From: an uncultured Lachnospira sp.
Lineage (GTDB): Bacteria; Bacillota; Clostridia; Lachnospirales; Lachnospiraceae
Direction of reading: 5' to 3'
NCBI GenBank assembly: GCA_934358235.1
Contig: CAKRKK010000002.1
Location: 1-35,464 of the forward strand
Length of the DNA stretch: 35,464 nucleotides
The position numbers and the translations under genes are program-made. Positions 2,699 to 32,398 of this stretch are shown here, piece after piece. The notes under the pieces were generated by a model. That model saw only the letters and a program-made list of their open reading frames with translations, was not told the origin of the DNA and searched no databases. Numbering within the stretch: position 1 is the first letter of the stretch; every line of letters begins with the position of its first letter.

Positions 2699-2731
2699 AT
2701 TTCAATTACTTATCAATTACTTATCAATCAC
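2699..2731 (-). repeat. 11-bp tandem repeat directly after the stop codon of the coiled-coil gene
   Basis: Reading the minus strand from the TAG stop, the next bases are GTGATTGATAA, GTAATTGATAA and a diverged GTAATTGAAAT. That makes three contiguous 11-bp units starting at the base after the stop. Confidence 0.7.
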
Positions 2732-3337
2732 CTAAAAGTTCAGGTCAATCTCGATTCCCTTAATATCCTCATTAATTAGATTATTCTTCTTCATAATCTG
2801 GGCGACCTTACTCTGGGCTTCTTCCATATTATTAGTTTTCTCATCAGTTATTGATATGCTTTCTTCAAGCTTTTTAGCTTCAGTATCACCTTCAATAATT
2901 GCCTGTTCTTCCTCCCTCTTCTGCTTTGCTTCATCAATCTGCTCTTTTTGTTCTTCCTTCTTCTTTTCAGCTTCCTCTGCTTTTTCTTTATTCTCTTCTA
3001 ACTTATCATCTATATTATTCTTTCCTTCATTAATAAGATTTCCATATATATCCTTTTCGGCAGCTTCTATTATACTGTCGGCAGCATCCTGTGCTTTTAG
3101 CATATCTTGTGACTTAGCCTGCTCTTTTCTTGCCTCACCAATCGACATTGTAAGACACATAGCCTTGGTTTCATTCTTATCAATTTCATCATATATAGCA
3201 TCTTTACCTGCATTAATTGAAAGTGCTTTTTTCTGATATTCCGTAAGTGGCTGACTCTCGAGCTCCTTTAACCTTTTTATTTCTTCCTTTGAGAATCTGT
3301 CATTAAACACTCCAGTCTTATTGTCCTGATACTTCAT
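2732..3337 (-). CDS. Coiled-coil protein, probably the downstream part of a TGA-interrupted gene
   Basis: This is a 201-residue, highly charged protein without signal peptide or membrane segment. Residues about 15-175 are predicted helical, with a long EEKKKEEQKEQ-type coiled coil around 110-150. It lies in the same reading frame as the upstream gene (3395-3715). The 19 codons between that gene's TGA and this ATG contain no stop and read as charged coil (for example KDSQEQKDREL). The ATG has a possible GGGAG site, so independent translation is possible. Either these are two cistrons or one 328-codon gene has acquired a nonsense codon. No function is recognised. Confidence 0.6.
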   Translation of the reverse strand: MKYQDNKTGVFNDRFSKEEIKRLKELESQPLTEYQKKALSINAGKDAIYDEIDKNETKAMCLTMSIGEARKEQAKSQDMLKAQDAADSIIEAAEKDIYGNLINEGKNNIDDKLEENKEKAEEAEKKKEEQKEQIDEAKQKREEEQAIIEGDTEAKKLEESISITDEKTNNMEEAQSKVAQIMKKNNLINEDIKGIEIDLNF

Positions 3338-3394
3338 TAAAAGCTCCCGATCTTTTTGTTCCTGCGAGTCTTTATCAACTCCACACTCTTCTCT

Positions 3395-3715
3395 TCAGGC
3401 TTCCTGTCTATTTTCTATATCTTTAAGCTTCGACTTTAGTTCATTGTTTCTTATTGCTAAATCATCCTTTGTCTTAGCCATACTATTGATGTCATCTGCC
3501 GCCTTTTTATCACTGCTCCAAGCATCAGCTATAAGCTTCATAGCCTGTTTTCTGGCGCCTGTTCTCTTTTCATTCATCATCTGTTCTCTGTTAGTCAGCT
3601 TATTAAGATTAAGGTTATTAGCATTTATTGACTTTATCTGCTTCTTAACACCTGTTTTTTCATTCTTAATATTCATATCTGAATTATTCACGTTAATATT
3701 AATACTAAGTGGCAT
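3395..3715 (-). CDS. Asn-rich/coiled-coil protein ending at an in-frame TGA
   Basis: This 106-residue protein starts MPLSININVNNSD behind a good GAGG site. It has an Asn-rich N-terminus and then a charged helical region to KDIENRQEA. It ends at TGA (3397-3395). The frame then stays open through the next gene without another stop, suggesting a nonsense mutation or split gene. It starts 27 bp after the stop of the 204-residue coiled-coil gene and shares its operon and the sigma-D-like promoters. The family is unknown to me. Confidence 0.6.
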   Translation of the reverse strand: MPLSININVNNSDMNIKNEKTGVKKQIKSINANNLNLNKLTNREQMMNEKRTGARKQAMKLIADAWSSDKKAADDINSMAKTKDDLAIRNNELKSKLKDIENRQEA

Positions 3716-3742
3716 ATATTTACCTCGTTCTTTCGTATATTA

Positions 3743-4357
3743 TTAATCCTGATGATTATTACTATCCATATTACTATAACCTGTATTACTCATAACTTCA
3801 GAAGCTTCAACTATCTGTGGTGATTCTCCCTGTGCGGTTGCATTAGCACCAACCTCATCGGGATCCTGATATTTCTTTTCTTCTTCATTCTCCCATAGTG
3901 ACTTATGCTTCTTTCGTTTCTCTGCCTTAGCCAATTCTCCCATATTCTTAGCCATCTGATACAATTTATCATTATATTCCATAAGCTTTCTTTCATCTGT
4001 TGATGGGACAATATCACCCTTCATAAGACGCCTTGCAACTTCCATAATCTTTGCCATATCATCATAATAATCCTTCATGGCATCACCCTGCTGCTTGGCA
4101 GACTCAGCATTCGCCCACAGGCACCACTGTTCTGTAAGCTTACTCATATAATCATAATATTCATCCTGTTTATCCCGCAATTCTTTGTAGGTAAGTTCAA
4201 TAGTGGCAGCTTCCTTATCAAGTATATCCTTATCTGTTCCACTTGCATTCTTAAGAGCTTCCTGTATCTCTTTTTTTCTTTTTGAAACAGCCGACATTTC
4301 ACTTTGATAATCTTGTATTACTGCGCGATATTTTTGCTGTGCATCTCTTATTTTCAT
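3743..4357 (-). CDS. Coiled-coil protein of unknown function in a sigma-D-like operon
   Basis: The protein has 204 residues with no signal peptide. Residues 1-75 form an amphipathic coil (KYRAVIQDYQSEMSAVSKRK). A Trp-containing helical core follows (EQWCLWANAESAKQQGDAM) and then a conserved-looking block around KIMEVARRLMKGDIVPSTDE. The C-terminal 50 residues are low-complexity and acidic. It is the first gene of the operon, with AAGGTG upstream of the ATG. Two matches to the sigma-D consensus lie 44 and 73 bp upstream, so expression with late motility genes is likely. The protein may therefore be a motility-linked cytoplasmic factor, but no homologue is recognised with certainty. Confidence 0.65.
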   Translation of the reverse strand: MKIRDAQQKYRAVIQDYQSEMSAVSKRKKEIQEALKNASGTDKDILDKEAATIELTYKELRDKQDEYYDYMSKLTEQWCLWANAESAKQQGDAMKDYYDDMAKIMEVARRLMKGDIVPSTDERKLMEYNDKLYQMAKNMGELAKAEKRKKHKSLWENEEEKKYQDPDEVGANATAQGESPQIVEASEVMSNTGYSNMDSNNHQD

Positions 4358-4400
4358 ATGTACACCTTCTTAAGTAAAACCACATTCCCATAAGATTATT

Positions 4401-4427
4401 TTATCGGATAATTTAGTTATATATTTA
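4401..4427 (-). promoter_or_regulatory. Sigma-D (FliA)-like promoter, proximal
   Basis: On the minus strand TAAA (4427-4424) is followed by exactly 15 bp and then TCCGATAA (4408-4401). The sigma-28/sigma-D consensus is TAAA-N15-GCCGATAA, so only one base differs. It lies 44 bp upstream of the coiled-coil operon start. Confidence 0.7.
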
Positions 4428-4429
4428 TA

Positions 4430-4456
4430 TTATCGGATTTATATATATAGAATTAA
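4430..4456 (-). promoter_or_regulatory. Sigma-D (FliA)-like promoter, distal
   Basis: On the minus strand TTAA (4456-4453), 15 bp, then TCCGATAA (4437-4430): two mismatches to the sigma-D consensus. It duplicates the proximal promoter 29 bp further upstream with the same -10 octamer. Confidence 0.5.
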
Positions 4457-4789: not shown

Positions 4790-6463
4790 ATGAGTACTAA
4801 AGATTTATTCTGGAAAGACATGACCTCTTCTTTTCCTGACATTATAAAAGCGATAACCTCGCTTTCCAAGAAGTCTTATATCTCTATCACTAACCTGAAT
4901 ACAGATATAACCTGGTGGTCACAAAGAGCTATGGACTACTTTAACCTGGATGAGAATTATACAATCAAGGGAAAGGAAAAGGGAAACCATTCAATACATC
5001 CTGATGATTTAACAGCCTTTAAGGAAGGCTTTAAGGAGCGTCTTGAAGGCAGGAATCTTGATAAGGCGTGGGAATATCGTATTAAAGATGGGGAGAATTA
5101 TCATCGTTTTAGTGCTAAAGCAAGACTGATATATGATAACAATAACTCACCCTTATATATAATAATACGCTACGATAACTATGGTATATCTGATGATATT
5201 GATTCTGTTACCGGACTTTATACAGACTCGCTTCTTAATCAGCGTATTACGGATCTTACCTCCTGTACGAATAACCAGACTGTGCTTCTTAAGGTCGGTA
5301 TTAATCAGTTCAGCCATATTAATGTTATGTATGGAGTGACCTTTTCAGACATGATACTTAATAATGTAGCTCAGATTATGCTTAATATAACAAGAAATAA
5401 AGGAACCGTATACCGTTCATCAGGAGCTAACTTTATCATAAGCTTTAAAAGCATGACCAGAGATGATTTACAACATATATATGATGAGCTAACTGATTCA
5501 TTGTCGAATAACATTATTATAAAAGATATGAAGGTTCCTCTTAAAATATGTGCCGGAGCCATATATATTGAACCTCATATGACAGAAATCAACGCAATAA
5601 GAAGCCGTCTTACATATGCTATCAATCATTCTAAGACAGCCCACCACGGTGAGCTTGTTATATTTAATGATGAAATAAATGGTAATAGCGACTATCAGTT
5701 TAACCTTATAAGTCTTATCCACAAAAGTGCAACCTCTGACTTTAAAGGCTTCCGTCTGTTCTATCAGCCTATTGCTGATACGAAAACAGGTGCTATAAAA
5801 GGCATGGAGGCACTTATAAGATGGGAGCTTGAACCTTATGGCGTTGTTTCTCCTGGAATATTTATGGAGTGGCTCGAACAGGATCCTTGTATATTTGACC
5901 TTGGCAACTGGATTATAAGGACTGCTCTTACAGATATAAAGAGCTTAAGAAGGGGACACCCTGACTTCTTTGTGAATGTAAACATAGCTGCTGCACAGCT
6001 TGAAAGAAAGGAATTCCGTGATTCAGTATTATCTATCCTAAAGGAAACCAGCTCTTCACCTGATGAGCTATGCCTTGAACTGACAGAACGCTGCCGCGAC
6101 CTTGATGTCAATTTTCTTAAGGAAGAGGTTGCCTTTTTCCGTTCGCAGGGCATTAAGATTGCCCTTGATGATTTCGGCACAGGAAACAGCTCTTTAAGTC
6201 TTGCTCTTGAGCTTCATTTTGATGAGCTTAAGGTAGATATGAGTTTTATTAAGGATATAAAGAATAAGCCTCAGAATCAGGCTATGGTCCAGTCAATAAT
6301 AGACTATGCTAAAAGGACTCATACAGAAACCTGCATAGAAGGTATAGAAGATGCTAATGTTGATGATTATATAAGACATTTTGGTGCAACGTGGCATCAG
6401 GGCTATTATTACTCACGTCCCGTTCCTATTAGCGAGTTTGAAAAGCTGCTCACTAATAATTAA
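4790..6463 (+). CDS. PAS-like / degenerate GGDEF / EAL c-di-GMP phosphodiesterase
   Basis: The protein has 557 residues and no membrane segment. Residues about 20-130 form a PAS-like sensor domain, with a PAC-type end at PLYIIIRYDN. Residues 137-295 form a GGDEF domain whose signature is SGANF (211-215), so cyclase activity is very unlikely. Residues 305-555 form an EAL domain with the usual ligands: EAL at 340-342, N398, E430 in ELTE, DDFGTG at 460-465, K481, E517 and Q537. It therefore probably hydrolyses c-di-GMP to pGpG, with the dead GGDEF domain as a possible GTP sensor. GGAG precedes the ATG by 8 bases. It ends five bases before the stop of the convergent flavodoxin-like gene. Confidence 0.9.
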   Translation: MSTKDLFWKDMTSSFPDIIKAITSLSKKSYISITNLNTDITWWSQRAMDYFNLDENYTIKGKEKGNHSIHPDDLTAFKEGFKERLEGRNLDKAWEYRIKDGENYHRFSAKARLIYDNNNSPLYIIIRYDNYGISDDIDSVTGLYTDSLLNQRITDLTSCTNNQTVLLKVGINQFSHINVMYGVTFSDMILNNVAQIMLNITRNKGTVYRSSGANFIISFKSMTRDDLQHIYDELTDSLSNNIIIKDMKVPLKICAGAIYIEPHMTEINAIRSRLTYAINHSKTAHHGELVIFNDEINGNSDYQFNLISLIHKSATSDFKGFRLFYQPIADTKTGAIKGMEALIRWELEPYGVVSPGIFMEWLEQDPCIFDLGNWIIRTALTDIKSLRRGHPDFFVNVNIAAAQLERKEFRDSVLSILKETSSSPDELCLELTERCRDLDVNFLKEEVAFFRSQGIKIALDDFGTGNSSLSLALELHFDELKVDMSFIKDIKNKPQNQAMVQSIIDYAKRTHTETCIEGIEDANVDDYIRHFGATWHQGYYYSRPVPISEFEKLLTNN

Positions 6464-7056: not shown

Positions 7057-7208
7057 CCTGTATTACCTCCATTCACTTTCGCTTATCATAGTGCTTAAGT
7101 GTTCAAATACTCTCATATACCATATATAATGTATCCTTATATATATTCTATGTCTAATACCTGTTATTAATGCTAAGTTATGCCTAAAATGTATAATTAT
7201 TTCCGTCT

Positions 7209-7256
7209 ATTTTAATACAACTTCTATTATTTTTATTTTAATATAGTTTCTATTAT
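7209..7256 (-). repeat. 26-bp tandem duplication of the amidase 3' end including the stop codon
   Basis: The last eight codons and TAA stop of the amidase gene are followed by a second, diverged copy at a 26-bp offset that ends in TAG. Both copies contain AATAATAGAA and ATTAAAATA. The second copy is not translated with the gene. Confidence 0.65.
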
Positions 7257-8399
7257 TCCTGCTGCATCAGCTCTTGCCAGAGCATCCAGTTGTACATCTG
7301 TACTAAGATAATTTCTGTAGTCACTCTCGTTACTTAAAAATGCATGTTCAACTATAATAGTTGGTATACCTGCACACGTTCCCTCATTGATAAGCCCATA
7401 ATAATCAGCTACGGAACCATCAGGATATAATTCACCTGCTGTATTATATCTCTGGAGTATTCCATCTTTATATTCGTTTCCATTCCAACTGTCATTGGCT
7501 ATAGGAATACCAATACCATTAAGCTTTGAAAGTATAGAATATGCAAGCGTTCTCTCTTTATCATAAATACTGCCAAACCTTGCATTATCCGGCTGATATC
7601 TGCTGCAGCTCATAAGCACCATGCAGCCGTGTGCATCAAGCTCATCAGTACTTTTACTATTAATATGCATTGATATAACATAATCTGCAGCTTGCTCTGC
7701 AGCATACTCAATACGTCCCGCAAGGCTTACTGAATAGTCTGAATCCCTTGTCATCACAACTCTTATATTATCATTCTGCTCAAGATAATACTTTAACTTA
7801 CGTGCTATCGCCATAGTTACATTCTTTTCTTTGATTAGTACTCCATCATAGGTTTCTTTCGTACCTTCATTGCTCCCGCCATGTCCAGGATCTATACATA
7901 TAGTGATTCTGTTGTCTTCTTCCTTTGGCGTATCTGGCTCTGGGGTGGCTTCTGTCATAGTTTTTTCTTCATCCTCAGTTTCAGCTTCGCTCTTAGCCTT
8001 TTCATTATCCCAGGTTTCAGCTTCGGTCTTAGTGCTTTCTTCATCTCCGGTTTCAGCTTCGTTCTTAGCCTTTTCTTCATCCCCGGTTTCAGCTTCGGTC
8101 TTAGCCTTTTCTTCATCCTCGGTTTCAGCTTCTATCTCAGCTTTTTCTTCATCCTCAGTAATTGCTTTAGTTTCTGACAGCTTATCATCTGTATCCTGTG
8201 CATAAGCTGAGGATTGATTACTTATTTCACTAATATTAATATCACTGCCAGCATCAGTTCCTTTACTCTGGCTTTCTCCACATCCTGACATACACATCAC
8301 CAAGGTAAAAGCTAATATAATCAGCGCAATATTTCTTAATGCGCTTAAGCTATATTTATTTCTATATTTATTTTTATACTCATTTATTAGTCTTTTCAC
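7233..8399 (-). CDS. N-acetylmuramoyl-L-alanine amidase lipoprotein (Amidase_3)
   Basis: This 388-residue protein starts at GTG (8399), which overlaps the previous gene's stop as GTGA, so translation is coupled. A signal peptide ends in a lipobox with Cys40 (CMSGC). Residues 81-150 are six copies of an acidic 12-residue repeat (consensus EAETEDEEKAKT), a likely spacer through the wall. The catalytic domain runs from 164 to 388 and has the Zn ligands H173 (DPGHGG), E191 and H245 (SMHINS) and the catalytic E351 (IIVEHAFLS). It should cleave the amide bond between MurNAc and the stem peptide. It is the last gene of the operon with the AAA+ ATPase. Confidence 0.93.
   Translation of the reverse strand: MKRLINEYKNKYRNKYSLSALRNIALIILAFTLVMCMSGCGESQSKGTDAGSDINISEISNQSSAYAQDTDDKLSETKAITEDEEKAEIEAETEDEEKAKTEAETGDEEKAKNEAETGDEESTKTEAETWDNEKAKSEAETEDEEKTMTEATPEPDTPKEEDNRITICIDPGHGGSNEGTKETYDGVLIKEKNVTMAIARKLKYYLEQNDNIRVVMTRDSDYSVSLAGRIEYAAEQAADYVISMHINSKSTDELDAHGCMVLMSCSRYQPDNARFGSIYDKERTLAYSILSKLNGIGIPIANDSWNGNEYKDGILQRYNTAGELYPDGSVADYYGLINEGTCAGIPTIIVEHAFLSNESDYRNYLSTDVQLDALARADAAGIIETILK
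7950..8159 (-). repeat. 36-bp coding repeat in the amidase linker
   Basis: About six tandem 36-bp units encode the acidic 12-residue repeat EAETEDEEKAKT and variants between the lipobox and the catalytic domain. The DNA copies differ at scattered positions. Such arrays usually change length by slippage. Confidence 0.8.
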
Positions 8400-8642: not shown

Positions 8643-10121
8643 TTACTCAAATAATTCTCTGACCATATCTGCATCATACGAAACACTCTTTGCATGCTCT
8701 ACCTCGATAAGATAAAGTGCATGTGCTGCCAGATGCTCTGCTGCCTGCTCAAGATCTCGTATACCTGTTGTGTCCCTGAATATATCAAGTACTACATCAA
8801 GTCCTTCATCAGTTATAGTACATTCATCCTCGTGAAGTCCTATCTTTTTAAGAACCTTTGGAAGAGAGAATCTGTTAAATATTGTCTTCTTTTCCTCTCT
8901 GGTATAATCAGGAATATCGATTATTGCGAATCTTGAAAGTAAAGGTGCACTTATCTGCTCCTTATAATTAGCCGTTGCTATTGGATATACCCCTGAGGTT
9001 GGAATAAGACATTCCATATAATTATCTGTAAATCCAAGATTATCGAGTAATGTAAGCAGTACATCTGCAGGATTGGCATTGCCATTACTTGATGTTGCCT
9101 TGTCCAGCTCATTTATAATAAATACAAGATTAGATTCACCTGCATTGCTGTATGCCTCCATAATAATACCCGGCTTTGCATTTGAATATATTCTTGATGA
9201 ACCTGTGAGCTGTTCTGCATCATTAATAGAGCTCATATCAAGAGTAGTCCAAGGCATCTTAAGAATCTTAGCAACAAGATAGGCTATCTGTGACTTTCCT
9301 GTACCCGCTGGTCCTACAAGAAGTATTCCATAGGAAGGCAGAGTATGTGTTCTATTAATCTGTATAACTGTTTCAATTATACGCTGCTTAACTGATTCCA
9401 TGCCAAAAAGCTCCTCATCCAGGATTCTTCTGGCTTCTACTGGATCTATTGATTCAAAGTAATTGCTCTTCCACTTTATGTTAAGCATAATAGAAAGTGC
9501 TCTTTGTGCGTGCCTTTTCTCTTCTGGTGTTACCTCGCTTGAACGTGCAACTGCAAGATTACGTCTTGCCCACAATCTTATATTTTCAGGAAGTGTCATA
9601 CCTGCACAGTTAAGAAAATCAGATATACTTGTTATGCTTGTAAGCTTCATGCTGTCGCCGGATTCATCAAGGTCTTCATCTACATTCTCAGCAACGATGC
9701 TGCTTTCGAGCAATCTCTCAATCATATACTGAAGAAAGCCATCCTCTGATGACAGCTTCTGGCTGTTATTGAAGGCTATCTCCTGAATTCTGTATACAGC
9801 ATATCCCTCCTGTGTATTCTCACCTGTCAGCTTAACCTTGATACGGTTCTCACCAAGCCACTTGATAAGTGCTGTAAAACGGGCATCCACCTTAAGAATA
9901 TTACTTAATATATTAGCTTCCCCTGTCTGGAATTCGAAAGCTGTCTTCTTGTAGGGATTGGCAAACATGCCAACTGTATTAAGCTCCCACTTCTGTTCTG
10001 AATTATCAAGAACTAATATAGGATGTTCCTTAGTAGCGATATTATTATCTGAATTAAATGTTGTATATGTGCATTCAAATGATGATGAGTTACTTGCATT
10101 TTTAAAATCAAATACTGGCAT
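8643..10121 (-). CDS. Lon-like AAA+ ATPase without protease domain
   Basis: The ATG at 10121 is chosen because AGGAG lies eight bases upstream; the open frame extends further but has no ribosome site. The 492-residue protein has an N-terminal region of about 220 residues of unknown fold. A Lon-like linker follows (RRILDEELFGMESVKQRI, 231-248), then Walker A GPAGTGKS (270-277), Walker B FIINELDK (334-341), sensor-1 IATANY (381-386) and arginine finger region LLSRF (394-398). The C-terminal lid includes TGIRDLEQA. The order and spacing match the Lon ATPase module, but the protein ends where the Ser-Lys protease domain would begin. It is the first gene of an operon with a cell-wall amidase. Substrate unknown. 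Confidence 0.8.
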   Translation of the reverse strand: MPVFDFKNASNSSSFECTYTTFNSDNNIATKEHPILVLDNSEQKWELNTVGMFANPYKKTAFEFQTGEANILSNILKVDARFTALIKWLGENRIKVKLTGENTQEGYAVYRIQEIAFNNSQKLSSEDGFLQYMIERLLESSIVAENVDEDLDESGDSMKLTSITSISDFLNCAGMTLPENIRLWARRNLAVARSSEVTPEEKRHAQRALSIMLNIKWKSNYFESIDPVEARRILDEELFGMESVKQRIIETVIQINRTHTLPSYGILLVGPAGTGKSQIAYLVAKILKMPWTTLDMSSINDAEQLTGSSRIYSNAKPGIIMEAYSNAGESNLVFIINELDKATSSNGNANPADVLLTLLDNLGFTDNYMECLIPTSGVYPIATANYKEQISAPLLSRFAIIDIPDYTREEKKTIFNRFSLPKVLKKIGLHEDECTITDEGLDVVLDIFRDTTGIRDLEQAAEHLAAHALYLIEVEHAKSVSYDADMVRELFE

Positions 10122-10250
10122 AATATTATCTCCTGTTTTTATTGTTCTTGTGCATATCTTTATATGCCTGCTGCTTCCCCAGCAAATGCATATATAATAC
10201 CACACTTTATGGCTGTCTGCCATATATTTCGCACTTGAAATATACGCTTG

Positions 10251-10320: not shown

Positions 10321-10332
10321 TAAAAAATATAT

Positions 10333-10360
10333 CTTATAAAATAGCTCTTATAAAATATCC
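10333..10360 (-). repeat. 14-bp tandem repeat at the galM stop codon
   Basis: CTTATAAAATAGCT (10333-10346) and CTTATAAAATATCC (10347-10360) are adjacent direct copies that abut the galM stop codon at 10360-10362. Confidence 0.6.
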
Positions 10361-11439
10361 TATAATCCAGCTTTATCAAAGGTATAGCGGATTCTTTTAT
10401 TGAATCTGTCTAAAGCCCTGCATACAGGACTTACAAAGTTACTGTGATTAACTGCATCTGGATAGTATTGTGGCTCAAAGCACACTCCATCACGTTCTGA
10501 ATATATGTGTCCTTTCTTACCCTTAACTCCTCTTCTTCTGTTACTTATAAAATTACCTGTATACATCTGCATGCCTGGGTAATCTGTCTCAATCTGCATA
10601 TGTATACCTGATATATCTCCTGTCACATCAACTATTCTGTGTAGTTTTCCTGATTCCTCCGTTATCCAGTTATGGTCATAACCATTAGCATTCCGAAGCT
10701 GGTCATAATCTTCATTAATATCCTGCCCTATCGTCTTACACCTTCTAAAGTCCATAGGGGAATTTTCAACACTTCTTATCTCTCCCGTTGGAATTGCATC
10801 CCTGCCCGATGGTGTGAATCTGTCAGCATATATAACAAGCTTATGCTTGTATATACTTCCACTACCTTCACCATTAAGATTAAAGTAACTGTGATTAGTC
10901 ATATTTATAACTGTATCCTTATCCGGTATACCGTCATATTCTATCTCAAAGGAATTGTCTGACAGAAACCTATATGTAATATATATTATAAGATTTCCCG
11001 GAAAGCCCTGATCCATATCCTTACTATTAAGCACAAAGGTTACACTGCTTTCATCTGAATCTGCATATGTCCACTTTCTGCGGCAATAGGCATATGTACC
11101 GCTATGTATGGTATTATCTCCATCATTTAACTCTAACTGGTATTCATTCCCGCTAATAACCATATGACCTTTAGCTATTCTGTTAACGCATCTGCCCATA
11201 TTACAGCCCATATTATTGTCTGCATCATTTTCATATTCATATACGTTATCATAGCCAAGCACAATATCCGTCCACTGGCCATTATTATCCAACACCTCAA
11301 GACTTACAAGCGTTGTTCCATAATCTATTATTCCCAGCTTTAAGCTTTTTGTCTGTAGCTTATACATAGTTATTTCTTCGCCTGTGCTTGTCTTTCCAAA
11401 ACTTCCGATAGTCATATTCATATTAATGTTATTATCCAT
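10360..11439 (-). CDS. galM: Aldose 1-epimerase (mutarotase)
   Basis: This 359-residue enzyme interconverts the alpha and beta anomers of glucose and galactose. Visible motifs are NMTNHSYFNLNGEGSG, with the catalytic His, the substrate-binding segment AYCRRKWTY, and CFEPQYYPDAVNH, which carries the catalytic Glu near the C-terminus. Length and motif order fit the GalM family. GGAGG lies seven bases before the ATG. It lies 132 bp downstream of upp on the same strand; no other galactose gene is in the window, so it may simply be read through from the pyrimidine genes. Confidence 0.93.
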   Translation of the reverse strand: MDNNINMNMTIGSFGKTSTGEEITMYKLQTKSLKLGIIDYGTTLVSLEVLDNNGQWTDIVLGYDNVYEYENDADNNMGCNMGRCVNRIAKGHMVISGNEYQLELNDGDNTIHSGTYAYCRRKWTYADSDESSVTFVLNSKDMDQGFPGNLIIYITYRFLSDNSFEIEYDGIPDKDTVINMTNHSYFNLNGEGSGSIYKHKLVIYADRFTPSGRDAIPTGEIRSVENSPMDFRRCKTIGQDINEDYDQLRNANGYDHNWITEESGKLHRIVDVTGDISGIHMQIETDYPGMQMYTGNFISNRRRGVKGKKGHIYSERDGVCFEPQYYPDAVNHSNFVSPVCRALDRFNKRIRYTFDKAGL

Positions 11440-12216: not shown

Positions 12217-12252
12217 AATATTCCTCGTTTCTGCGTACTCTTATTAATTCAA

Positions 12253-12359
12253 TGATACCAGTATCAAAAGATCTAAACCCACTTAAGCTCGCTCATAGGT
12301 GGGTAAAAGACCTTGTGGCCCACCTCGATATGAGCATAAAAGTGGGATAAAAATCCCAC
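12253..12359 (-). ncRNA. Structured uraA-upp intergenic segment
   Basis: On the plus strand GCTCATAGGTGGG (12291-12303) pairs with CCCACC (12319-12324) and TATGAGC (12329-12335), a 13-bp stem with a 4-base bulge. A second hairpin, GTGGGAT/ATCCCAC (12342-12359), is followed on the minus strand by TTTTA and could terminate uraA transcripts. AAGTGGG (12340-12346) can alternatively pair with CCCACTT (12278-12284). A perfect dyad TGATAC-CA-GTATCA sits at 12253-12266 near upp. No known riboswitch or PyrR-site consensus was recognised. It could be a terminator plus leader of upp. Confidence 0.4.
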
Positions 12360-12419
12360 GATATGCGAATATTGTGGCGGGTGCTATGTGCCAGCTACGC
12401 CCTGACACATATTCTGTTA

Positions 12420-12455
12420 TTTTCTCTGTTGTTTTCTCTGTTCTTTTCTCTGTTC
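12420..12455 (-). repeat. 12-bp tandem repeat downstream of uraA
   Basis: Three contiguous units, TTTTCTCTGTTG, TTTTCTCTGTTC and TTTTCTCTGTTC, lie 25-60 bp beyond the uraA stop and before the terminator-like hairpin. Confidence 0.75.
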
Positions 12456-12479
12456 TATTAATGTACAGATTACGTTCGT

Positions 12480-14089: not shown

Positions 14090-14127
14090 AGACAGGATTT
14101 TTAAAAATGTATAAATGGAGGTTTATT

Positions 14128-15825: not shown

Positions 15826-15882
15826 ACAAAACTTAATAAACTTCACGACATTAATAACCTTAAACAAACTTAATAAATTCAA
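15823..15882 (+). repeat. 38-bp-period duplication starting at the LCP stop codon
   Basis: TAAACAAAACTTAATAAA begins at the stop codon (15823) and a near copy, TAAACAAACTTAATAAA, begins at 15861. The copies are 22-23 bp long and are separated by related AT-rich sequence. Confidence 0.5.
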
Positions 15883-15887
15883 GCATT

Positions 15888-15951
15888 AAAAAAGCACATA
15901 TTATGATAATAAAAGAGATGTACTCCTATTTATCATGACATGTGCTTTTTT
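15888..15951. terminator. Bidirectional terminator between LCP and PilZ genes
   Basis: AAAAAAGCACAT (15888-15899) pairs with ATGTGCTTTTTT (15940-15951), giving a T-run on either strand. An inner ATGATAA/TTATCAT pairing extends the hairpin. It serves both convergent genes. Confidence 0.85.
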
Positions 15952-15972
15952 ATATATTGCTTTTCATATATA

Positions 15973-16688: not shown

Positions 16689-16726
16689 ATTCTCTGTTAT
16701 TTAAGTAATTTCTCAGTTATTAAACA

Positions 16727-16750
16727 CTATTACTTACATTATTACTTACA
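16727..16750 (-). repeat. 12-bp tandem duplication across the yqeY stop codon
   Basis: CTATTACTTACA and TTATTACTTACA are adjacent. On the minus strand this gives TGT AAG TAA TAA, then TGT AAG TAA TAG: the last two codons and the stop are repeated. Confidence 0.6.
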
Positions 16751-17179
16751 ATATTCAGCTACAACTGTATTGATAACCTTACCATCTGCCTTCCCCTTGA
16801 GTTCAGCCATAACTGCCTTCATAATCTGTCCTTTATTCTTTGTTGCAAGAACATCTGCAAACTTCTCGTTAAGTATAGTTCTTACCTCTTCTTCTGATAA
16901 CATCTTTGGTGCAAACTCTGACATGACAGCCAGACGGGCATTATACTCCTCTAAAAGCTCTGTTCTGTCGGCAGGGCAGGTATCAATCTGCTCTTTTACA
17001 CTCTTAATTTCCTTAAGAATAGCCTGATCCACCATATCCTCAGGTATATCTTCCCTGCAGCCTGCATCTATTGCAAGCTTCTTGGCTGCTGACACAAGAA
17101 CAGCTATTGAATCCTTTCTCTGCTTATCTCTTGCCTTCATTGCATCAATCATAGCCTTCTGTAAAACATTGAACTGCAT
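16742..17179 (-). CDS. yqeY: GatB/YqeY domain protein
   Basis: This 145-residue protein matches the stand-alone YqeY family in length and pattern. It begins MQFNVLQKAMIDAMKARDK, has a helical N-terminal half, EYNARLAVMSEFAPKMLSEEEV in the middle, and the helical tail domain with NKGQIMKAVMAELKGKADGK that resembles the tRNA-binding tail of GatB. It is cytoplasmic. The exact role is unknown, though a tRNA-linked function is inferred from GatB. It is monocistronic with its own terminator. Confidence 0.92.
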   Translation of the reverse strand: MQFNVLQKAMIDAMKARDKQRKDSIAVLVSAAKKLAIDAGCREDIPEDMVDQAILKEIKSVKEQIDTCPADRTELLEEYNARLAVMSEFAPKMLSEEEVRTILNEKFADVLATKNKGQIMKAVMAELKGKADGKVINTVVAEYCK

Positions 17180-18239: not shown

Positions 18240-18277
18240 GCCACAAGCTCCTTTCCTTTCCTTTACTATATTTTTAT

Positions 18278-18781: not shown

Positions 18782-18810
18782 ACTGCTCCTTATTCCAATC
18801 TATCCTATAT

Positions 18811-18873
18811 GTTTATCTTTTCTATCTTTCCTATCTGTCTATCTTTCCTGCCTATCTTTTCTATCTGTCTATA
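18811..18873 (-). repeat. 8-9-bp repeats across the stop codon of the fibro-slime gene
   Basis: About seven units of CTATCTTTC, CTATCTGT and CTATCTTTT follow one another on the plus strand. They run from inside the last codons of the fibro-slime gene into the spacer before sipW. On the minus strand each unit contains GATAG, so the TAG stop is repeated in several frames. Confidence 0.6.
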
Positions 18874-21656: not shown

Positions 21657-21746
21657 ATTCTCTCCTTCCAGATTAATATTACCAGTTGTTCTGTCAGATA
21701 ATATTTTTTCTTTTATTCAGAATATCCTTCGTACCTGTGTTCTTAT

Positions 21747-21852
21747 ATTTCATCCCTAACCTCTGCTATCAGCGGCAAGTTTTTCAAGCTTATATTATGA
21801 TTTCATCCTCAGCCTCTACTATCGCTGACAAGCTTTTCAAGCTTGTATTCTG
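21747..21852 (-). repeat. 53-bp tandem duplication of the 3' end of the BTAD gene
   Basis: 21800-21852 contains the last 14 codons and TGA stop of the regulator gene. 21747-21799 is an ungapped copy matching at 42 of 53 positions. In the copy the stop position reads TAG. The copy lies wholly downstream of the gene. Confidence 0.85.
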
Positions 21853-22981: not shown

Positions 22982-22992
22982 GGCATCACCTG

Positions 22993-24423: not shown

Positions 24424-24557
24424 AACAATCCTCATTTCTTATTGTTGTCAGTTTCACACAAACGGGGCAAATCAATCAATTTGCCCCGTTTTCACACACT
24501 TTCTATTCTATGACTGATATGTCTTATTTATGACATATTTTTATTTATATAGATTAC

Positions 24558-24583
24558 TTCTCATTATTCATTCTCATTATGCA
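24558..24583 (-). repeat. 13-bp tandem duplication across a stop codon
   Basis: TTCTCATTATTCA (24558-24570) and TTCTCATTATGCA (24571-24583) are adjacent. The TAA stop of the exported-protein gene (24579-24577) lies in the gene-proximal unit and is copied in the next one. Confidence 0.65.
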
Positions 24584-25176
24584 TTCCTTATACTTACATT
24601 GCCCCATCCGGTTATGTTACCCTCTGTATCTTTTTCAGGTACAAAGTTATCTGCCTGGATAAACTCTGCTCTGGCATCAATATTAAAGGTCTTTTCTGCC
24701 ATTTCATTTCCCCACTTAACTGGTATAGTTACCTTAGTAAATACTGTTGCAGACTTTACTGCATTCTCCTTGTTAGAAAGCACCTCACTATAATAATAAT
24801 ATCCATCCTCTGACTTAGCCCAGCCTTCCTGAATATCAAGTGCTGCCTCAATATCTGCTGCCTGCTCCTGTGTAAGTCCACTATAATCAAGCTTTACTCT
24901 TACATAAGCATCCTGGGAATCTGCTTTAAGCTTAACTGTTGGATCCTTTGCTAACACATCCCCTGGCTTTACATTGCTATAATCCTTACCTGTTGTATTA
25001 TCATCACGCTTATGTTCATCTGTTTCTGTAAGTGTACCCGTCACATGACCTAATGTTACAACATTAGAACGCGAATCCTTATCAGTAAAATATGCCAAGG
25101 TTCCACCAATAACTGATGTTAAGCATAGTGCTGAAGCAGTAATGCCTATTACAAGCTTTTTTCTATATTTAACCAT
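24577..25176 (-). CDS. TasA/camelysin-like SipW-dependent protein
   Basis: The 199-residue precursor has the hallmark SipW signal: basic MVKYRKK, a hydrophobic core, then GGTLAYFTDKDSRSN. The mature part is a single beta-sandwich domain that opens VVTLGHVTGTLTE and has NVKPGDVLAKDPTVKLK and DAYVRVKLDYSG, the pattern of TasA/camelysin (Peptidase_M73-like) proteins. TasA forms biofilm fibres in Bacillus; a protease activity is not implied here. GAGG precedes the ATG by ten bases. It is third in the operon, 44 bp after the previous gene. Confidence 0.85.
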   Translation of the reverse strand: MVKYRKKLVIGITASALCLTSVIGGTLAYFTDKDSRSNVVTLGHVTGTLTETDEHKRDDNTTGKDYSNVKPGDVLAKDPTVKLKADSQDAYVRVKLDYSGLTQEQAADIEAALDIQEGWAKSEDGYYYYSEVLSNKENAVKSATVFTKVTIPVKWGNEMAEKTFNIDARAEFIQADNFVPEKDTEGNITGWGNVSIRNA

Positions 25177-25220
25177 TCTTATTAATCCTCATTTCTATAC
25201 TAATTAACCCGATATCTATT

Positions 25221-25976
25221 CTATAACTCAAACTGTGAGTCTGCTGCTGCCCTGCTGTTTACAAGTTTTACAAGCTCTGGCTTTGCAGTCTTATAATCTG
25301 CAAATGTAGAAGCCTGGACTGCAAAACCTGTAACCCTGATATTAAAGGTTGGAAGTGTGCCTGCATCAACAATATTATTATCCTCATCTTTATAAATAAC
25401 TGTAGGTTCATACTCTTCTTTTTCTGTATCAATAACAGCTATTTTATTACCATCGGCATCGCATCTGTATACCTTCTTTGTCTTTGTAAGGGCAGACCAT
25501 TCCTCTGTTATACCAGCATTTACCTCTACATTGTTGAATAACGCCTCTGTTGAAGAAGCTGCCTCAACTGCCGTCTTATAAACCCAGATTTCACTTCCAT
25601 CTGCATTTACACTAATCTTTTCCCAGTTACTTGTATCATAATCAGTAACAGAAGCATATTTTGAAAATGTATCAGCGTCCATCAGCTCTCCGTCTGCAGC
25701 TTCATAATCTACCCTGATAGCCATATATACTGGCTGGTCTGATTCATTATTCATTACTGGATTCTTTCTGATAACATCACCAGGTAAATAATCTTTTCCT
25801 GAGTCACTAGTCCATTCTGTCTCTGTAAGTGTTGTTGTTATATTCTTACCCGATGTAAATGTATTAGTCTTAGTCTCCGTTACAGAATTAAGATATGCAA
25901 GAGTTCCTCCTACTGCAAGAACTGCTGAAAGTGCCATAGCTGCCGCTGTTGCTGTTATTTTCTTTATCTTATTCAT
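25221..25976 (-). CDS. TasA/camelysin-like SipW-dependent protein
   Basis: The 251-residue precursor starts MNKIKKITATAAAM and has the signal end VGGTLAYLNSVTETKTNTF typical of SipW substrates. The mature beta domain has LPGDVIRKNPVMNNESDQPVYMAIRVDYEA, a pattern close to that in the neighbouring subunits, and ends with FNIRVTGFAVQAS. GGAGGG lies upstream of the ATG. It is second in the operon. It is most like the following 239-residue protein (shared TKTNTF/TETNVF and FNI-VT-FA/YAIQA segments), so the two probably arose by duplication and may form mixed fibres. Confidence 0.85.
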   Translation of the reverse strand: MNKIKKITATAAAMALSAVLAVGGTLAYLNSVTETKTNTFTSGKNITTTLTETEWTSDSGKDYLPGDVIRKNPVMNNESDQPVYMAIRVDYEAADGELMDADTFSKYASVTDYDTSNWEKISVNADGSEIWVYKTAVEAASSTEALFNNVEVNAGITEEWSALTKTKKVYRCDADGNKIAVIDTEKEEYEPTVIYKDEDNNIVDAGTLPTFNIRVTGFAVQASTFADYKTAKPELVKLVNSRAAADSQFEL

Positions 25977-27819: not shown

Positions 27820-27842
27820 ATAATCCTAATCCTGTCTTTATA

Positions 27843-27880
27843 TAACTATTTCTTTTATATCACTATTTCTTTCTTTTATA
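27843..27880 (-). repeat. 17/21-bp duplication of a gene end with its stop codon
   Basis: On the minus strand TATAAAAGAAAGAAATAGTGA (the last codons, stop and three bases) is followed by TATAAAAGAAATAGTTA, the same sequence lacking one GAAA. Confidence 0.6.
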
Positions 27881-28270
27881 TATTTCTTCTGTTATCTTAT
27901 CGTGAGAGTTTCCCTGGAATTCATCCGAGCTTTCAAGCACGAATTCGTCAAGCAGTTCCTCCGGAAATGTAGTGTCTGAAGGATATTCCCTGTTCCACCT
28001 GTAAAGATAAACCATATCAATATGCTCTTTCACATCTGATATTTTATCATCCTCTATAAAACAATAATCGTCTTTATCAGCCTGTGCAAAATTCTGGCTT
28101 AACACTATGTTCCCGCTATGTGGAAATAAAGCTTTTGTATACAAGGATACCCATAACTTATGTTCCTTTGTAAGTTCATTTATTCTATCTATAAGGACAG
28201 CATCCTTACTTTGTCTTCTGTTATTAAACATCATTCCATAATTATCATCTATTACTGCTATTAACTTCAT
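27863..28270 (-). CDS. Conserved protein of unknown function
   Basis: This is a 135-residue protein without signal peptide. It begins MKLIAVIDDNYGMMFNNRRQSKD, a dihydrofolate-reductase-like first strand and loop. It then has a strand ending LYTKALFPHSGNIVLSQ and a DKDDYCFIEDD segment, and later VYLYRWNREYPSDTTF. Proteins of this shape are common in Lachnospiraceae; I do not trust the enzyme names sometimes given to them. GGAGG lies before the ATG. It is in one transcript with the nuclease downstream. Confidence 0.75.
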   Translation of the reverse strand: MKLIAVIDDNYGMMFNNRRQSKDAVLIDRINELTKEHKLWVSLYTKALFPHSGNIVLSQNFAQADKDDYCFIEDDKISDVKEHIDMVYLYRWNREYPSDTTFPEELLDEFVLESSDEFQGNSHDKITEEIYKRKK

Positions 28271-28401: not shown

Positions 28402-28445
28402 CTGTATTATTCCTGTATTATTCCTATATTATCCCTGTATATACA
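28402..28445 (-). repeat. 11-bp tandem repeat downstream of endonuclease IV
   Basis: CTGTATTATTC, CTGTATTATTC, CTATATTATCC and a partial CTGTATATACA follow in direct order at an 11-bp period between the stop codon (28454) and the terminator. Confidence 0.75.
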
Positions 28446-28453: not shown

Positions 28454-29317
28454 CTACTTAATAAGCCACGCTATTTCCTCTTTATATGGAGGAAGCTTCT
28501 TATCACCATCACCGTCTGCTATCCAAGGTGTTTCAAGTATCTTAGGCACATCAGCAAATCTCTCATCATGCACAAGTCTGTGAAGTGTTTCATATCCTAT
28601 ACTGCCCTTATCAACATTAGCATGTCTGTCCTTATGTGCTCCTAATTGATTCATGCTATCGTTGATATGAAATACTGCTATCTGGTCAAGACCTATAACC
28701 TTATCAAACTCCTCAAAGACCTCATCATAATGATTAACTATATCATATCCTGCATCATTAACATGACAGGTATCAAAGCATACCCTTAATCTGTCAGACC
28801 TTTCTACACCATCATATATTGCTTTTATTTCTTCAAAGGATCTGCCTATTTCACTGCCCTTGCCTGCCATAGTTTCAAGTGCGATATACACATCATCTGT
28901 ATTCTGGTTTAATACTGTATTAAGGCCTTTTATTATCTGTGCCGTTCCTGCTTCTACGCCTGCATTCACATGGCTTCCCGGATGAAGAACGAGTATATGG
29001 CTCTTCATAGCCGCTGTTCTTACTATTTCCTTTTCAAGGAATTCTACTGCCAGCTCATAGGTTTCTTTCTTAACTGTATTGGCAAGATTAATAATATATG
29101 GTGCATGTACCACAATTTCATTTATCCCATGGGCATGTGCATATTCCCAGCCAGCCTCTATATTTAATTCCGATATTTCCTTTCTTCTTGTGTTCTGTGG
29201 TGCACCTGTATACAACATAAACACATTAGCTCCATAGGAAGCTGCCTCCTTTGCTGAGGCTAAAAACATTTCTTTTCCTGCCATACCCACATGACAGCCT
29301 AGCTTTATCTCTGACAT
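28454..29317 (-). CDS. nfo: Endonuclease IV (AP endonuclease)
   Basis: The ATG at 29317 has GGAG nine bases upstream; an earlier ATG at 29332 has no ribosome site. The 287-residue enzyme cuts DNA 5' of abasic sites in base excision repair, using three Zn ions. Visible motifs include the start [60 protein letters not shown] with GSIG, and LETPW near the end. Length is standard. It is the last gene behind the two HD-GYP genes, with 20 bp between. Confidence 0.96.
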
Positions 29318-29337
29318 AATCTTATTCTCCATTTTAT

Positions 29338-30516
29338 TTACATTCTATTATCTGCCTGCTGTGAAACAAGTATACCTTCCATTATCCTTGCATCCTCCGG
29401 ATCAAACTTATCACCTGACAATATTCTTAGCTTTCTTATGACAATACTTCTGCTTTCGCCCTTTCTTAAATGCCTGTCTGTATAATCTGCAACCATAATG
29501 ATTCTTGCAAGCAGAGGAATCTGGTCACCCTTAAGCCCCTGTGGATATCCGCTTCCATCATAATTCTCCCTGTGATAATGAATCGCAGTAGCTATACTTT
29601 CTGCACTTGCAGTTTTAAGCATGCTTACAATCTCATAGCTTTTATCTACATAGGTTTTAAATATCTCATATTCCTCATCCGTAAGGTCATTCCTTTGTAT
29701 AAGTTCATCAGGAATACCAATCATTCCAATTTCATGAAGAAGTCCTGCATTATAAGCATTCATGCACATTTTATGATCTAAGCCCTTGCGCGTGGCTATC
29801 TCCTTTGCATATTCTGCAACCTGTGTTAAATGTGCCTCTTCACCATATATCTTTGCCCCAAGTGCATGCACCATAGTATTCATGACATTCATTGATATAC
29901 TCTCAAGTCTTGCATTCTCTTTATCTATCCTGCTCTCAAGCTTATGCTTTGCCTTGCTTTTATCAAGCCAGTATTTCTGGATAATAAACATAAGACAATA
30001 TATAACAAGCACCATACATATCAATAAATACGGTAATCTTAGAACTGTATTAGCACCATATATATCTATCAGCCTGTGATTACTGTTAATTCTGCAGTTA
30101 TATATAATAGAAAACACACTGATAATATTAATCGACAGACTATACTTTATTCCAAGGGCAAATATTGCACCACACGAAAATATTACCGGGTACATTATAC
30201 TAAAATCTTCAATATATGCACAGAATAATATTCGATATACAGGTATACTCATAATTATAAATGTAATATAATCTATCCATATATTATAATTCCTTACTGA
30301 TATAATTATATTAATTCCAAGCACAAGAACAATTACAGCTACCATCACTATATATTCCTGTGTAACACCAAATAGTATACCGGCTGGAATATTAATAAGC
30401 CACACTAATCCAAATGCAAGCTTAACCCAGAGTGCAAGCATTTTATCCTCATAAGGACAGGATATTATTTCCCAGAAATTCATATCCTTCCATGACTTTT
30501 TAAGTCTAAACTTCAT
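29338..30516 (-). CDS. Membrane HD-GYP protein with degenerate active site
   Basis: The ATG at 30516 has GGAAG upstream; an in-frame ATG further up has no site. The 392-residue protein has about six membrane segments (residues 30-180), a short coil and an HD-GYP domain (about 205-385). Several metal ligands are changed: HD is HE (261-262), the following Lys is M265, the next His is Y289 and the HHE motif reads HRE (315-317). GSGYP (321-325) is kept. It is therefore probably not an active phosphodiesterase and may act as a c-di-GMP sensor or a partner of the canonical paralogue encoded just upstream. Confidence 0.8.
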
Positions 30517-30614
30517 ATATTCTTCCTTTTTCAAATAGTAACAACCTCTAAAGCTTCTATCTGGCCAACTGACCAGAATATACATATATCTGACATAGTA
30601 AGCTTACATAACAC

Positions 30615-31802
30615 CTACAATAATTCTCCTCTTTCTATCATATCAATGACAGTTTTTGCAACACGCTTATCAAACTGCTTTCCCGCACCCTTTTCAAATT
30701 CACTTATAATATACGCCTTGTCACATTGCTTTCTATAACATCTGTTTGAATTCATAGCATCAAGTGAATCAGCAGCACTTATTATCATCACCATGGCAGG
30801 AAGCTGGTCTGAATTAACTCCATATGGATAGCCCCTTCCATCCACACGCTCGTGATGATATATAGCACCAAGATCTGCCTGTGGAAGGAACTCAAGATCT
30901 TTAAGTATTTTACCTCCCCAGATTGTATGCAGCTTCATTATATTATATTCTTCATCTGTAAGCCGGTCCGGCTTGTTAAGAATCATATCAGGAACTGCTA
31001 TCTTACCTATATCATGCAATAATGCACTTCTATATATAGCCTCCAGCTCTTTATCTGTGAAATTCCAGCCAATATTCTTAGCAATCATCAGAGAATACTC
31101 TGCAACTCTCTTGGAATGCTGCTGTGTATACCCATCCTTCGCATCAAGCATCTGGCTTATGGCTGTAACTGCATCTATCATAAGCTTCTTTCTGTCTGCA
31201 AGTGCACCTGCCACATCCCTTTCAAGCTGCTTTTCATTCTCCTCCTGATTCATCTGATACAGCTTGAAGAATATATCCATAATAACAACTATTATACAGA
31301 AGGACCAGTAAAATAGTGGATAGTAGCACAGATAATACTTGGAATAATTGTATACAAGCAGGCTTCTTAGTGGTGTATAAAACATAATCGTAACATACAA
31401 GCCAAAGCTTACACTCACAGGAATACCAAACGGCATTCCCAAAAGAACAATCGATATTATGGGTACAAGAAAATACCACAACATTGAAAAGCCTTCATTT
31501 GGTGCAAAAATAGAAATAGGCACAGCTAATATAAGAAAAGCAATTACGGCAGCCATACATATTTTATATATATTATCAGAATAACCAAGCGCAAATATAG
31601 CTGCTATACCAACTATTGAAACAGCAAACGTCATAGACGTTACAAGATATTCTCCCAGCTTGAAATTCTGTATATCAATGAGCAGCATAACTACAACGAA
31701 TATTATCATAACACTCTGTAACGCACGTATATCAACCCGGGATCTTTTCTCATACTGATATACTGCCTTTATACTATCTATCACTCTTGTGCCTATTCTC
31801 AT
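30615..31802 (-). CDS. Membrane HD-GYP c-di-GMP phosphodiesterase
   Basis: This 395-residue protein has about six membrane segments in residues 30-180, a coil and an HD-GYP domain (about 205-390). All expected residues are present: H229, HDIGK (263-267), H292, HHE (316-318), GRGYP (322-326) and D345. It should cleave c-di-GMP to GMP. GAGG precedes the ATG. It is the first gene of an operon with the degenerate paralogue and endonuclease IV; the gap to the next gene is about 100 bp. The N-terminal membrane domain is unassigned and may sense a ligand. Confidence 0.9.
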   Translation of the reverse strand: MRIGTRVIDSIKAVYQYEKRSRVDIRALQSVMIIFVVVMLLIDIQNFKLGEYLVTSMTFAVSIVGIAAIFALGYSDNIYKICMAAVIAFLILAVPISIFAPNEGFSMLWYFLVPIISIVLLGMPFGIPVSVSFGLYVTIMFYTPLRSLLVYNYSKYYLCYYPLFYWSFCIIVVIMDIFFKLYQMNQEENEKQLERDVAGALADRKKLMIDAVTAISQMLDAKDGYTQQHSKRVAEYSLMIAKNIGWNFTDKELEAIYRSALLHDIGKIAVPDMILNKPDRLTDEEYNIMKLHTIWGGKILKDLEFLPQADLGAIYHHERVDGRGYPYGVNSDQLPAMVMIISAADSLDAMNSNRCYRKQCDKAYIISEFEKGAGKQFDKRVAKTVIDMIERGELL

Positions 31803-31948
31803 TAAATACCTCTTTCGTATATTATGTAATGTATCGCCACTTGCAATATGCTATTTGCCATTTGCCATTTGCAATACCAATAAATACCAACTATATATAA
31901 AGAGTATCATATTATTTGTATTTTTTCAATTTTTTATAGACCGTATTG

Positions 31949-31957
31949 TGTTATAAT
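31949..31957 (+). promoter_or_regulatory. Extended -10 promoter of the 94-residue gene
   Basis: TGTTATAAT is a perfect extended -10 (TGnTATAAT). No good -35 is present. It lies 58 bp upstream of the start codon. Confidence 0.6.
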
Positions 31958-32015
31958 AATTTATATTTAATGTACTATACCTGAACATCATGGTTGAAAG
32001 AACGAGGCATAATAT

Positions 32016-32300
32016 ATGAAACCAAGAACAGAAGTAAGCATGCAATTATATAAGCTTATGCTTGACAGAGGATATGATGAGGAATTCTGCGATATTATAA
32101 CAAAGAATCTTAATACTGATTTTACTGCACAGCGCATGATAGGATATTTATATCATTATGAACATCCACCTGTTGAGGAAATAGCTGACGAAATGATATC
32201 CATTCTTTCTGACAGAAACAGAATTATGCAGAAAAAAGAGCTTGAAGAAGTCAACAAAAAATGGAATGACTTTCTTATGAATGGCTTCACAGATGACTAA
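32016..32300 (+). CDS. Small protein of unknown function
   Basis: This is a 94-residue, mostly helical acidic protein without signal peptide or membrane segment. It begins MKPRTEVSMQLYKLMLDRGY and has a pattern of short helices (FTAQRMIGYLYHYE, EEIADEMISILSDRNR) ending in a charged coil (QKKELEEVNKKWNDF). GAACGAGG lies upstream of the ATG. It has its own extended -10 promoter and stands alone between divergent and convergent neighbours. No family is recognised. Confidence 0.75.
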   Translation: MKPRTEVSMQLYKLMLDRGYDEEFCDIITKNLNTDFTAQRMIGYLYHYEHPPVEEIADEMISILSDRNRIMQKKELEEVNKKWNDFLMNGFTDD

Positions 32301-32324
32301 ATAATTACTTTTTAAGCATATAGC

Positions 32325-32359
32325 GGGATGTAAGATAACCTTCTGGCTTCTTACACCCC
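32325..32359. terminator. Hairpin between the small gene and trpD
   Basis: GGGATGTAAGA (32325-32335) faces TCTTACACCCC (32349-32359). In the minus-strand RNA the odd positions become G-U pairs, and the stem extends to about 14 bp. Neither side has a strong T-run, so it is a weak or factor-dependent terminator for the convergent pair. Confidence 0.5.
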
Positions 32360-32376
32360 ACTATAATAATAGCTTT

Positions 32377-32398
32377 ATCTACTGCTTATCTATTGCTT
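32377..32398 (-). repeat. 11-bp tandem duplication at the trpD stop codon
   Basis: ATCTACTGCTT (32377-32387) and ATCTATTGCTT (32388-32398) are adjacent. The stop codon (32388-32386) lies at their junction, and the copied unit again contains TAGATAA. Confidence 0.55.

Follow-up and report, generated by a model that had tools for sequence, protein, structure and literature searches.

We analysed a 35,464-nt stretch of DNA from an uncultured Lachnospira sp. (contig CAKRKK010000002.1 of GenBank assembly GCA_934358235.1; hereafter the window) in which short tandem duplications cluster at and directly after the stop codons of genes. The concentration of these duplications after stops is real and strong, and it is limited to a lineage. 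Under a gapless criterion (tandem duplications with a unit of 8-60 bp, 32 hand-set genes, near stop meaning within 50 nt after it), 11 duplications lay near stops, in 1157 bp, versus 1 in the other non-coding DNA of the window, in 3938 bp (binomial p=8e-7). AT content was 0.72 near stops and 0.68 in other non-coding DNA. Coding DNA of the window held eight gapless duplications, and the near-stop duplications faded beyond about 50 nt after the stops.

The arrays were catalogued with Tandem Repeats Finder (TRF), with a score of 30 or more, and rows at or no more than 25 nt from a stop were counted (Table 1). A first-pass annotation of the window had reported repeats at about a dozen gene stops, and a TRF row was present at each of the 13 that it named, although the one at 15825 was weak; TRF added arrays at two further stops, 2590 and 33912. 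The unit sizes, previously given as 8 to 53 bp, were 9-53 bp as TRF periods, with copy numbers up to 8 and a copy identity of 65-100% at the listed stops, and the unit sequences differed from gene to gene. The claim that the stop codon is often copied stood in part. The array covered the stop codon at 8 of the 13 stops (7233, 10360, 16742, 18861, 21809, 24577, 27863 and 32386), at 10360 through its weaker row only, whereas at the remaining five the array began downstream of the stop codon. The tail sequences of 7233, 16742, 21809, 24577, 27863 and 32386 showed directly that the repeated unit carries the last codons together with the stop, and in the array at 7208..7257 the first copy has TAA and the second TAG.

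Table 1. Tandem arrays at or close to stop codons in the window (positions are those of the whole stretch)
Position	Strand	Unit	Copies	Relation to gene	Remarks
2569..2597	+	15 bp	1.9	spans stop of gene 1835-2590(+)	TRF only; absent from first-pass list
2702..2728	-	11 bp	2.5	begins 3 nt past stop of gene 2732-3337(-)	100% match
7208..7257	-	26 bp	1.9	spans stop of amidase gene 7233-8399(-)	
10324..10380	-	14 bp; 26 bp		14-bp unit past stop, 26-bp row across stop, of aldose epimerase gene 10360-11439(-)	26-bp row weaker
12413..12456	-	12 bp	3.7	23 nt past stop of NCS2 permease gene 12480-13883(-)	
15829..15877	+	9 bp		past stop of LCP transferase gene 14107-15825(+)	weak, degenerate; 65% match, score 40
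16724..16755	-	12 bp	2.7	spans stop of YqeY-like gene 16742-17179(-)	
17412-17474 and 17272-17362	-	11 bp (11/22/33)		downstream of gene 17490-18299(-)	two adjacent degenerate arrays
18814..18872	-	9 to 17 bp		across stop of 931-aa gene 18861-21656(-)	nested, degenerate repeats
21743..21849	-	53 bp	2	holds last codons and stop of gene 21809-22981(-)	82% match with indels
24558..24586	-	13 bp	2.2	spans stop of gene 24577-25176(-)	
27837..27895	-	17 bp and 16 bp		span stop of gene 27863-28270(-)	
28402..28440	-	11 bp	3.5	13 nt past stop of gene 28454-29332(-)	
32375..32399	-	11 bp	2.3	spans stop of trpD 32386-33402(-)	
33869..33903	-	13 bp		past stop of gene 33912-34853(-)	absent from first-pass list

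The excess near stops was also seen with TRF. After hand merging of 60 TRF rows into 43 arrays, 15 lay near stops and 22 in coding DNA, with 1 near a start and 3 in the rest of the non-coding DNA (p=3e-7); DNA flanking the outermost genes of each stretch was not scored as non-coding, which excludes the arrays at 62-89 and 321-339. Dinucleotide shuffling of the non-coding DNA (20 runs) placed 1-4 TRF arrays near stops compared with the 15 observed, and repeat coverage up to 60 nt from stops was 0.213 compared with 0.006 in 3 shuffles. Relative to the 13 listed stops, the gapless set loses 7233, 15825 and 21809 and gains 33912; the criterion misses arrays that bear indels, as at 7233 and 21809. 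The hand-set genes omit the uncertain open reading frames 15940-16350 and 32016-32300, of which the automatically called set keeps 15973-16344 and 32016-32300. The arrays are too frequent for chance; the first-pass annotation had argued that they are too frequent to be a curiosity of one gene.

In order to place the window among its relatives, we compared its proteins and DNA with other genomes. The window has a GC content of 36.8%, and its AAA protein (8643-10223) is 95% identical over the best segment to that of Lachnospira sp. UBA5912 (G001) and 90% identical to that of the ATCC 27753 strain record (G002), which places the window in the genus Lachnospira. Matches to contig C47 of G001 were spread across 11.6-34.8 kb of the window at 68-90% DNA identity; of the first 20 kb of this contig, 17.6 kb aligned with the window at a mean identity of 75%. 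Several window genes also matched contig C2 (627 kb) of G011. No relative closer than G001 was found among the 22 genus Lachnospira genomes searched. An 879-bp query at E 1e-180 matched only G001 and G002 among 200 evenly drawn genomes of the family, and two protein scans for same-species DNA in IMG/VR yielded no confirmed relative. The window thus appears to belong to a Lachnospira species that has no sampled genome among those searched.

We next compared the window with 13 Lachnospira congeners and with 70 more distant loci, mostly Lachnospiraceae by title. Genes of the relatives were called by codon log-odds, with approximate starts, and start-side distances are rough. A looser cut-off was used for counts of touched stops, frame, gapless duplications in the window, pooled profiles and coverage, and a stricter one for stop-side densities per genome. 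Duplications touched 12 of the 33 stops in the window, compared with 10/268 in G001, 14/271 in G002, 5/352 in G011 and 6/73 in G013, and with 0-2 stops per genome in the other nine congeners. When the count was restricted to stops followed by a non-coding stretch of at least 80 nt, 9 of 15 in the window were duplicated versus 40 of 1043 pooled over the congeners (p=2e-9), where the share ranged from 0 to 6%; at the stricter cut-off the counts were 8/15 and 25/1043. Seven of the 13 congeners had no duplicated stop with such room, even at the looser cut-off, and in the distant loci 5 of 385 such stops were duplicated. G013, in a sample in which a single contig supplied 23 of the 24 stretches, carried 8 duplications in 8784 bp near stops versus 1 in 18501 bp of other non-coding DNA (p=7e-4), and G002 had a weak stop-side excess (6 in 13094 bp versus 5 in 26718 bp, p=0.12). 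These data show that stop-side duplication is a lineage trait, with the lineage of the window as the outlier and a milder excess in G013. A genus-wide rule was rejected, given the lack of a sharp stop peak in the pooled relatives, of any peak in G001 or G011, and the low count in the distant loci. An effect of the region rather than the lineage was also rejected, as G001 loci, including the syntenic contig C47, were not rich in duplicated stops (2/41).

The direction of change was read from orthologous gene tails, compared by eye. None of the window's arrays was present in the 13 orthologous tails of G001, and they were likewise absent from every G002 tail compared, including those of 2732, 17490 and 28454. 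The G001 protein ended on the same codon in 9 of the 13 cases (2732, 7233, 12480, 16742, 17490, 24577, 27863, 28454 and 32386). The product of 21809 is as long as its ortholog, but its last three residues did not align, and for 18861, 10360 and 15825 the protein ends differed by about 1, 4 and 11 codons, respectively. G001 TrpD, which is 97% identical to the product of 32386, ended on the same codon with no array, and the DNA after its stop looked unrelated. Since the arrays are absent from G001 while the end codon is shared, the coding copy in the stop-spanning cases predates the extra copy, which was gained downstream, in line with the proposal of the first-pass annotation that the arrays record duplication of gene tails. 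Conversely, window gene 4790-6463 lacks an array that its G001 ortholog carries.

Unit lengths were compared between gene ends and coding DNA. Near-stop units in the window were 9-17 bp under the gapless criterion, with 26 and 53 bp added by TRF, and 4 of 12 were multiples of three. In coding DNA, however, the unit was a multiple of three in 6 of 7 cases for the window and in 79 of 93 for the 13 relatives. Duplications are therefore filtered by reading frame within genes but not at stops. Scans other than the counts of exact duplications hide two-copy units below about 11 bp, and the lower size edge rests on those exact counts: near stops in the window, exact full duplications of 11 bp occurred three times and those of 12 bp twice (about 0.01 expected), units of 7-10 bp were absent where shuffling led us to expect 0.8, and units of 4-6 bp stood at chance level. 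Pooled over Lachnospira, the window included, exact near-stop duplications of 11 bp occurred 7 times and those of 12 bp 6 times (none expected), those of 9-10 bp occurred 3 times, and units of 6-8 bp were near the shuffle level. Elsewhere in non-coding DNA, 11-12 bp units occurred 6 times and 9-10 bp units 9 times. The contrast of 9-10 with 11-12 bp, 3 versus 13 near stops and 9 versus 6 elsewhere, gave p=0.03.

DNA downstream of stops also changed quickly in the congeners. When G011 was aligned with G019, 35-40% of its positions between 0 and 100 nt after stops were deleted or unaligned, and with G021 the share was 40-58%; before starts it was 12-18% and within genes 3-9%, in samples of 64-566 aligned bases per non-coding class. 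At 100-200 nt after stops the share rose from 0.10 to 0.215 against the closer G004 and fell to 0.02 against G019, a rough profile. This fast post-stop turnover supports tolerance of sequence change after stops. In the relatives, the last 60 nt of genes held 17 duplications in 129.9 kb and gene interiors 111 in 1930 kb.

We consider it probable that slipped-strand duplication is frequent in this Lachnospira lineage and that its products are retained where they are harmless. Independent short tandem duplications, mostly of 11-17 bp, would arise from slipped-strand copying in replication and would later be mutated or expanded, and we infer that their rate of formation is higher in this lineage than in its congeners. 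A stop-spanning duplication would leave the protein unchanged whatever the length of its unit, as the full tail and the stop are kept in the first copy, and one placed between the stop and the terminator or the next promoter would break nothing either. In coding DNA mainly multiples of three would survive, and near starts duplications would be expected to disturb promoters and ribosome-binding sites. Exact non-coding duplications of at least 10 bp extended past the full copy by a mean of 2.1 bases (27 of 30 rows), a value inflated by partial third copies, compared with 0.8 for blunt copying; this is what would be expected of slippage aided by microhomology. The copy identity of 65-100%, together with several arrays of more than three copies, points to a continuing process. 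Slippage tolerated in gene tails had been suggested in the first-pass annotation, and it fits both the stop-side excess (11 versus 1) and the array-free tails of G001.

Several observations weigh against this explanation. The species is represented by one 35-kb window, on one contig and without reads. The enrichment near stops over other non-coding DNA that the first-pass annotation had called for held in the window and in G013 but not in G002, and the stop-side peak was absent in G001 (4 in 7646 bp versus 7 in 17736 bp, p=0.43) and in G011 (0 near stops versus 1 in other non-coding DNA). The density in the pooled relatives was 0.68 duplications per kb near stops; for other non-coding DNA, with divergent regions counted in, it was 0.41 per kb. 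The fold difference between the window and its relatives was 14 near stops; for coding DNA it was 4 and for other non-coding DNA 0.7. A common fold was rejected both for near stops versus other non-coding DNA (p=3e-4) and for near stops versus coding DNA (p=0.01). Had the rate risen uniformly while the selective filter stayed the same, the fold would be equal everywhere, and the uneven folds count against this for that reason; either the selective filter differs in the lineage of the window or formation is biased to stops. In addition, indel turnover in congeners is high up to 100 nt past stops while the window's duplications fade at about 50 nt, and 20 of the 30 exact-duplication rows extend by only 0-2 bases.

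A bias of formation to stops would follow if duplication were coupled to translation termination, an explanation that we regard as unlikely. Past the stop, nascent RNA uncovered by the ribosome would give rise to RNA-DNA hybrids or paused polymerases, and replication through such sites would copy about one helical turn (11-12 bp) twice. The stop-side fold of 14 versus 0.7, the exact near-stop units of 11 and 12 bp in the absence of units of 7-10 bp, and the pooled contrast at p=0.03 speak for it, as does the 12-bp unit at 8350-8385, which lies just past stop 8396 and inside the next gene. However, the peak is missing from G001 and G011, coding DNA is raised about fourfold too, and in the relatives gene starts no more than 50 nt past another stop, by the rough start-side distances, were not richer in duplications (2 in 24.1 kb versus 8 in 106.1 kb). 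The termination-linked process proposed in the first-pass annotation therefore gains from the excess beyond a uniform rise in rate (p=3e-4) and loses from the lack of a peak in the nearest relative, G001. A fuller version, in which translation stops themselves are the hotspot, about one helical turn is duplicated within 50 nt, more than half of the roomy tails are scarred and G013 reflects the same process at a lower rate, is if anything less likely to hold.

A selected function after the stop, either back-up stops or a repeated signal for 3' mRNA ends or terminator spacing, seems improbable. Here, 14 tails were scored as duplicated, the 13 listed and 33912, and 2590 was scored as not duplicated. 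TAG stops were in excess in duplicated tails (8/14 versus 2/18 in other tails, p=0.008), a post hoc comparison, and the arrays at 16742 and 28454 were, by eye, flanked by the stop on one side and on the other by a hairpin with T-rich DNA after it; the hairpins at both were not among the matches listed in consensus terminator scans. Selection is reported to act on stop codon identity (PMC6006363), and in view of this the TAG excess may merit a look in a full genome. In contrast, the back-up stops suggested in the first-pass annotation found no support: an in-frame stop within 5 codons occurred in 9/14 duplicated versus 8/18 other tails (p=0.31), a multiple of three was found in only 4 of 12 units, the unit sequences are gene-specific, and the arrays were not seen in orthologous genes. 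Chance, a choice of window guided by its repeats, or an assembly fault would be very improbable sources of the pattern. The window was indeed picked since repeats were seen in it, and it is a single contig without reads. However, the difference from congeners (p=2e-9) would remain significant even if many thousand windows had been scanned, no sampled stretch in four relatives has more than three such stops, and imperfect copies at many separate loci would be unlike the output of an assembler. Least credible of all are scars of mobile elements, that is, target duplications remaining after excision. Target duplications of mobile elements have a size range that includes 9-14 bp, and units of this size occur here. 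Two copies of one fixed length at scattered sites, the hallmark of such duplications, were not what we found: arrays of 3 to 8 copies, many unit lengths up to 53 bp and differing sequences argue against this origin.

Other features of the window were recorded alongside the arrays. The array at 12413..12456 adjoins a match to the Rfam Clostridiales-1 RNA (RF01699, 62.7 bits) at 12253-12393, in the region that separates upp from the NCS2 permease gene. DNA matches to 12253-12393 are dispersed in G001, G002 and G003 at 76-94% identity, and this RNA accounts for the candidate dispersed repeat near 12250-12390. The N-acetylmuramoyl-L-alanine amidase gene contains a 36/72/108-bp array at 7948-8189 that reads as an acidic, lysine-rich linker, and the 12-bp duplication at 8350-8385 is in frame within its first codons, the stop at 8396 being that of the neighbouring gene. 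The genes at 18278-25976 encode a signal peptidase-like protein, a fibro-slime domain protein, a BTAD regulator, a SipW-dependent matrix-like protein (a match below the curated cut-off) and two M73/camelysin-like proteins, a row that we take to resemble a TasA-type matrix cluster. A GGDEF-EAL type protein is encoded at 4790-6463, and two adjacent HD-domain phosphodiesterase-like genes lie beside a xylose-isomerase-like TIM-barrel gene at 28454-31802; the window thus likely holds several cyclic-di-GMP genes.

If tolerance alone is at work, the window would offer a clean natural display of where genes absorb duplications of any length, and the arrays could serve as strain-typing markers for a common gut genus. 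A hotspot at stops, if true, would link translation termination to a specific type of mutation in bacteria. Among the open-access records listed, judged by title and the start of the abstract, we found no report of duplications anchored at bacterial stop codons. The nearest known kind is the non-coding repeats of Ehrlichia ruminantium, which, in the passages available, carries many non-coding tandem repeats with active expansion and contraction and variable copy number (PMC10710844). In both cases the non-coding DNA holds numerous tandem repeats, which in the window exceed chance. However, E. ruminantium belongs to another phylum, the passages make no mention of stop codons, and copy-number change is known there, whereas the window offers only presence versus absence between species. 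The TAACTGA heptamer repeats of Beggiatoaceae and cyanobacteria (PMC4679880) are likewise direct repeats at many intergenic places, some of them overlapping stop codons. In contrast to the differing units of 9-53 bp in the window, they share one common 7-nt unit, and in Beggiatoaceae they lie mostly just before starts, whereas the window has 15 arrays near stops and 1 near a start.

Two further systems demonstrate the origin of duplications of this sort, which have been ascribed to direct repeats, slippage or template switching (PMC5677150, PMC4169377). Yeast rad27 (flap endonuclease) mutants acquire ABA to ABABA duplications, for example with a 16-bp unit, that change in copy number (PMC5677150). 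These come from a laboratory yeast mutant, and a flap-processing defect is not known in the lineage of the window; edge repeats of the rad27 kind would agree with the mean extension of the window's rows (2.1 versus 0.8 expected) but less well with the 20 of 30 that extend by 0-2 bases. De novo short tandem duplications in a beta-lactamase gene have been partly ascribed to direct repeats and slippage (PMC4169377). Like those of the window they are bacterial and arose de novo, but they lie inside a drug-selected gene, whereas the duplications described here lie at gene ends.

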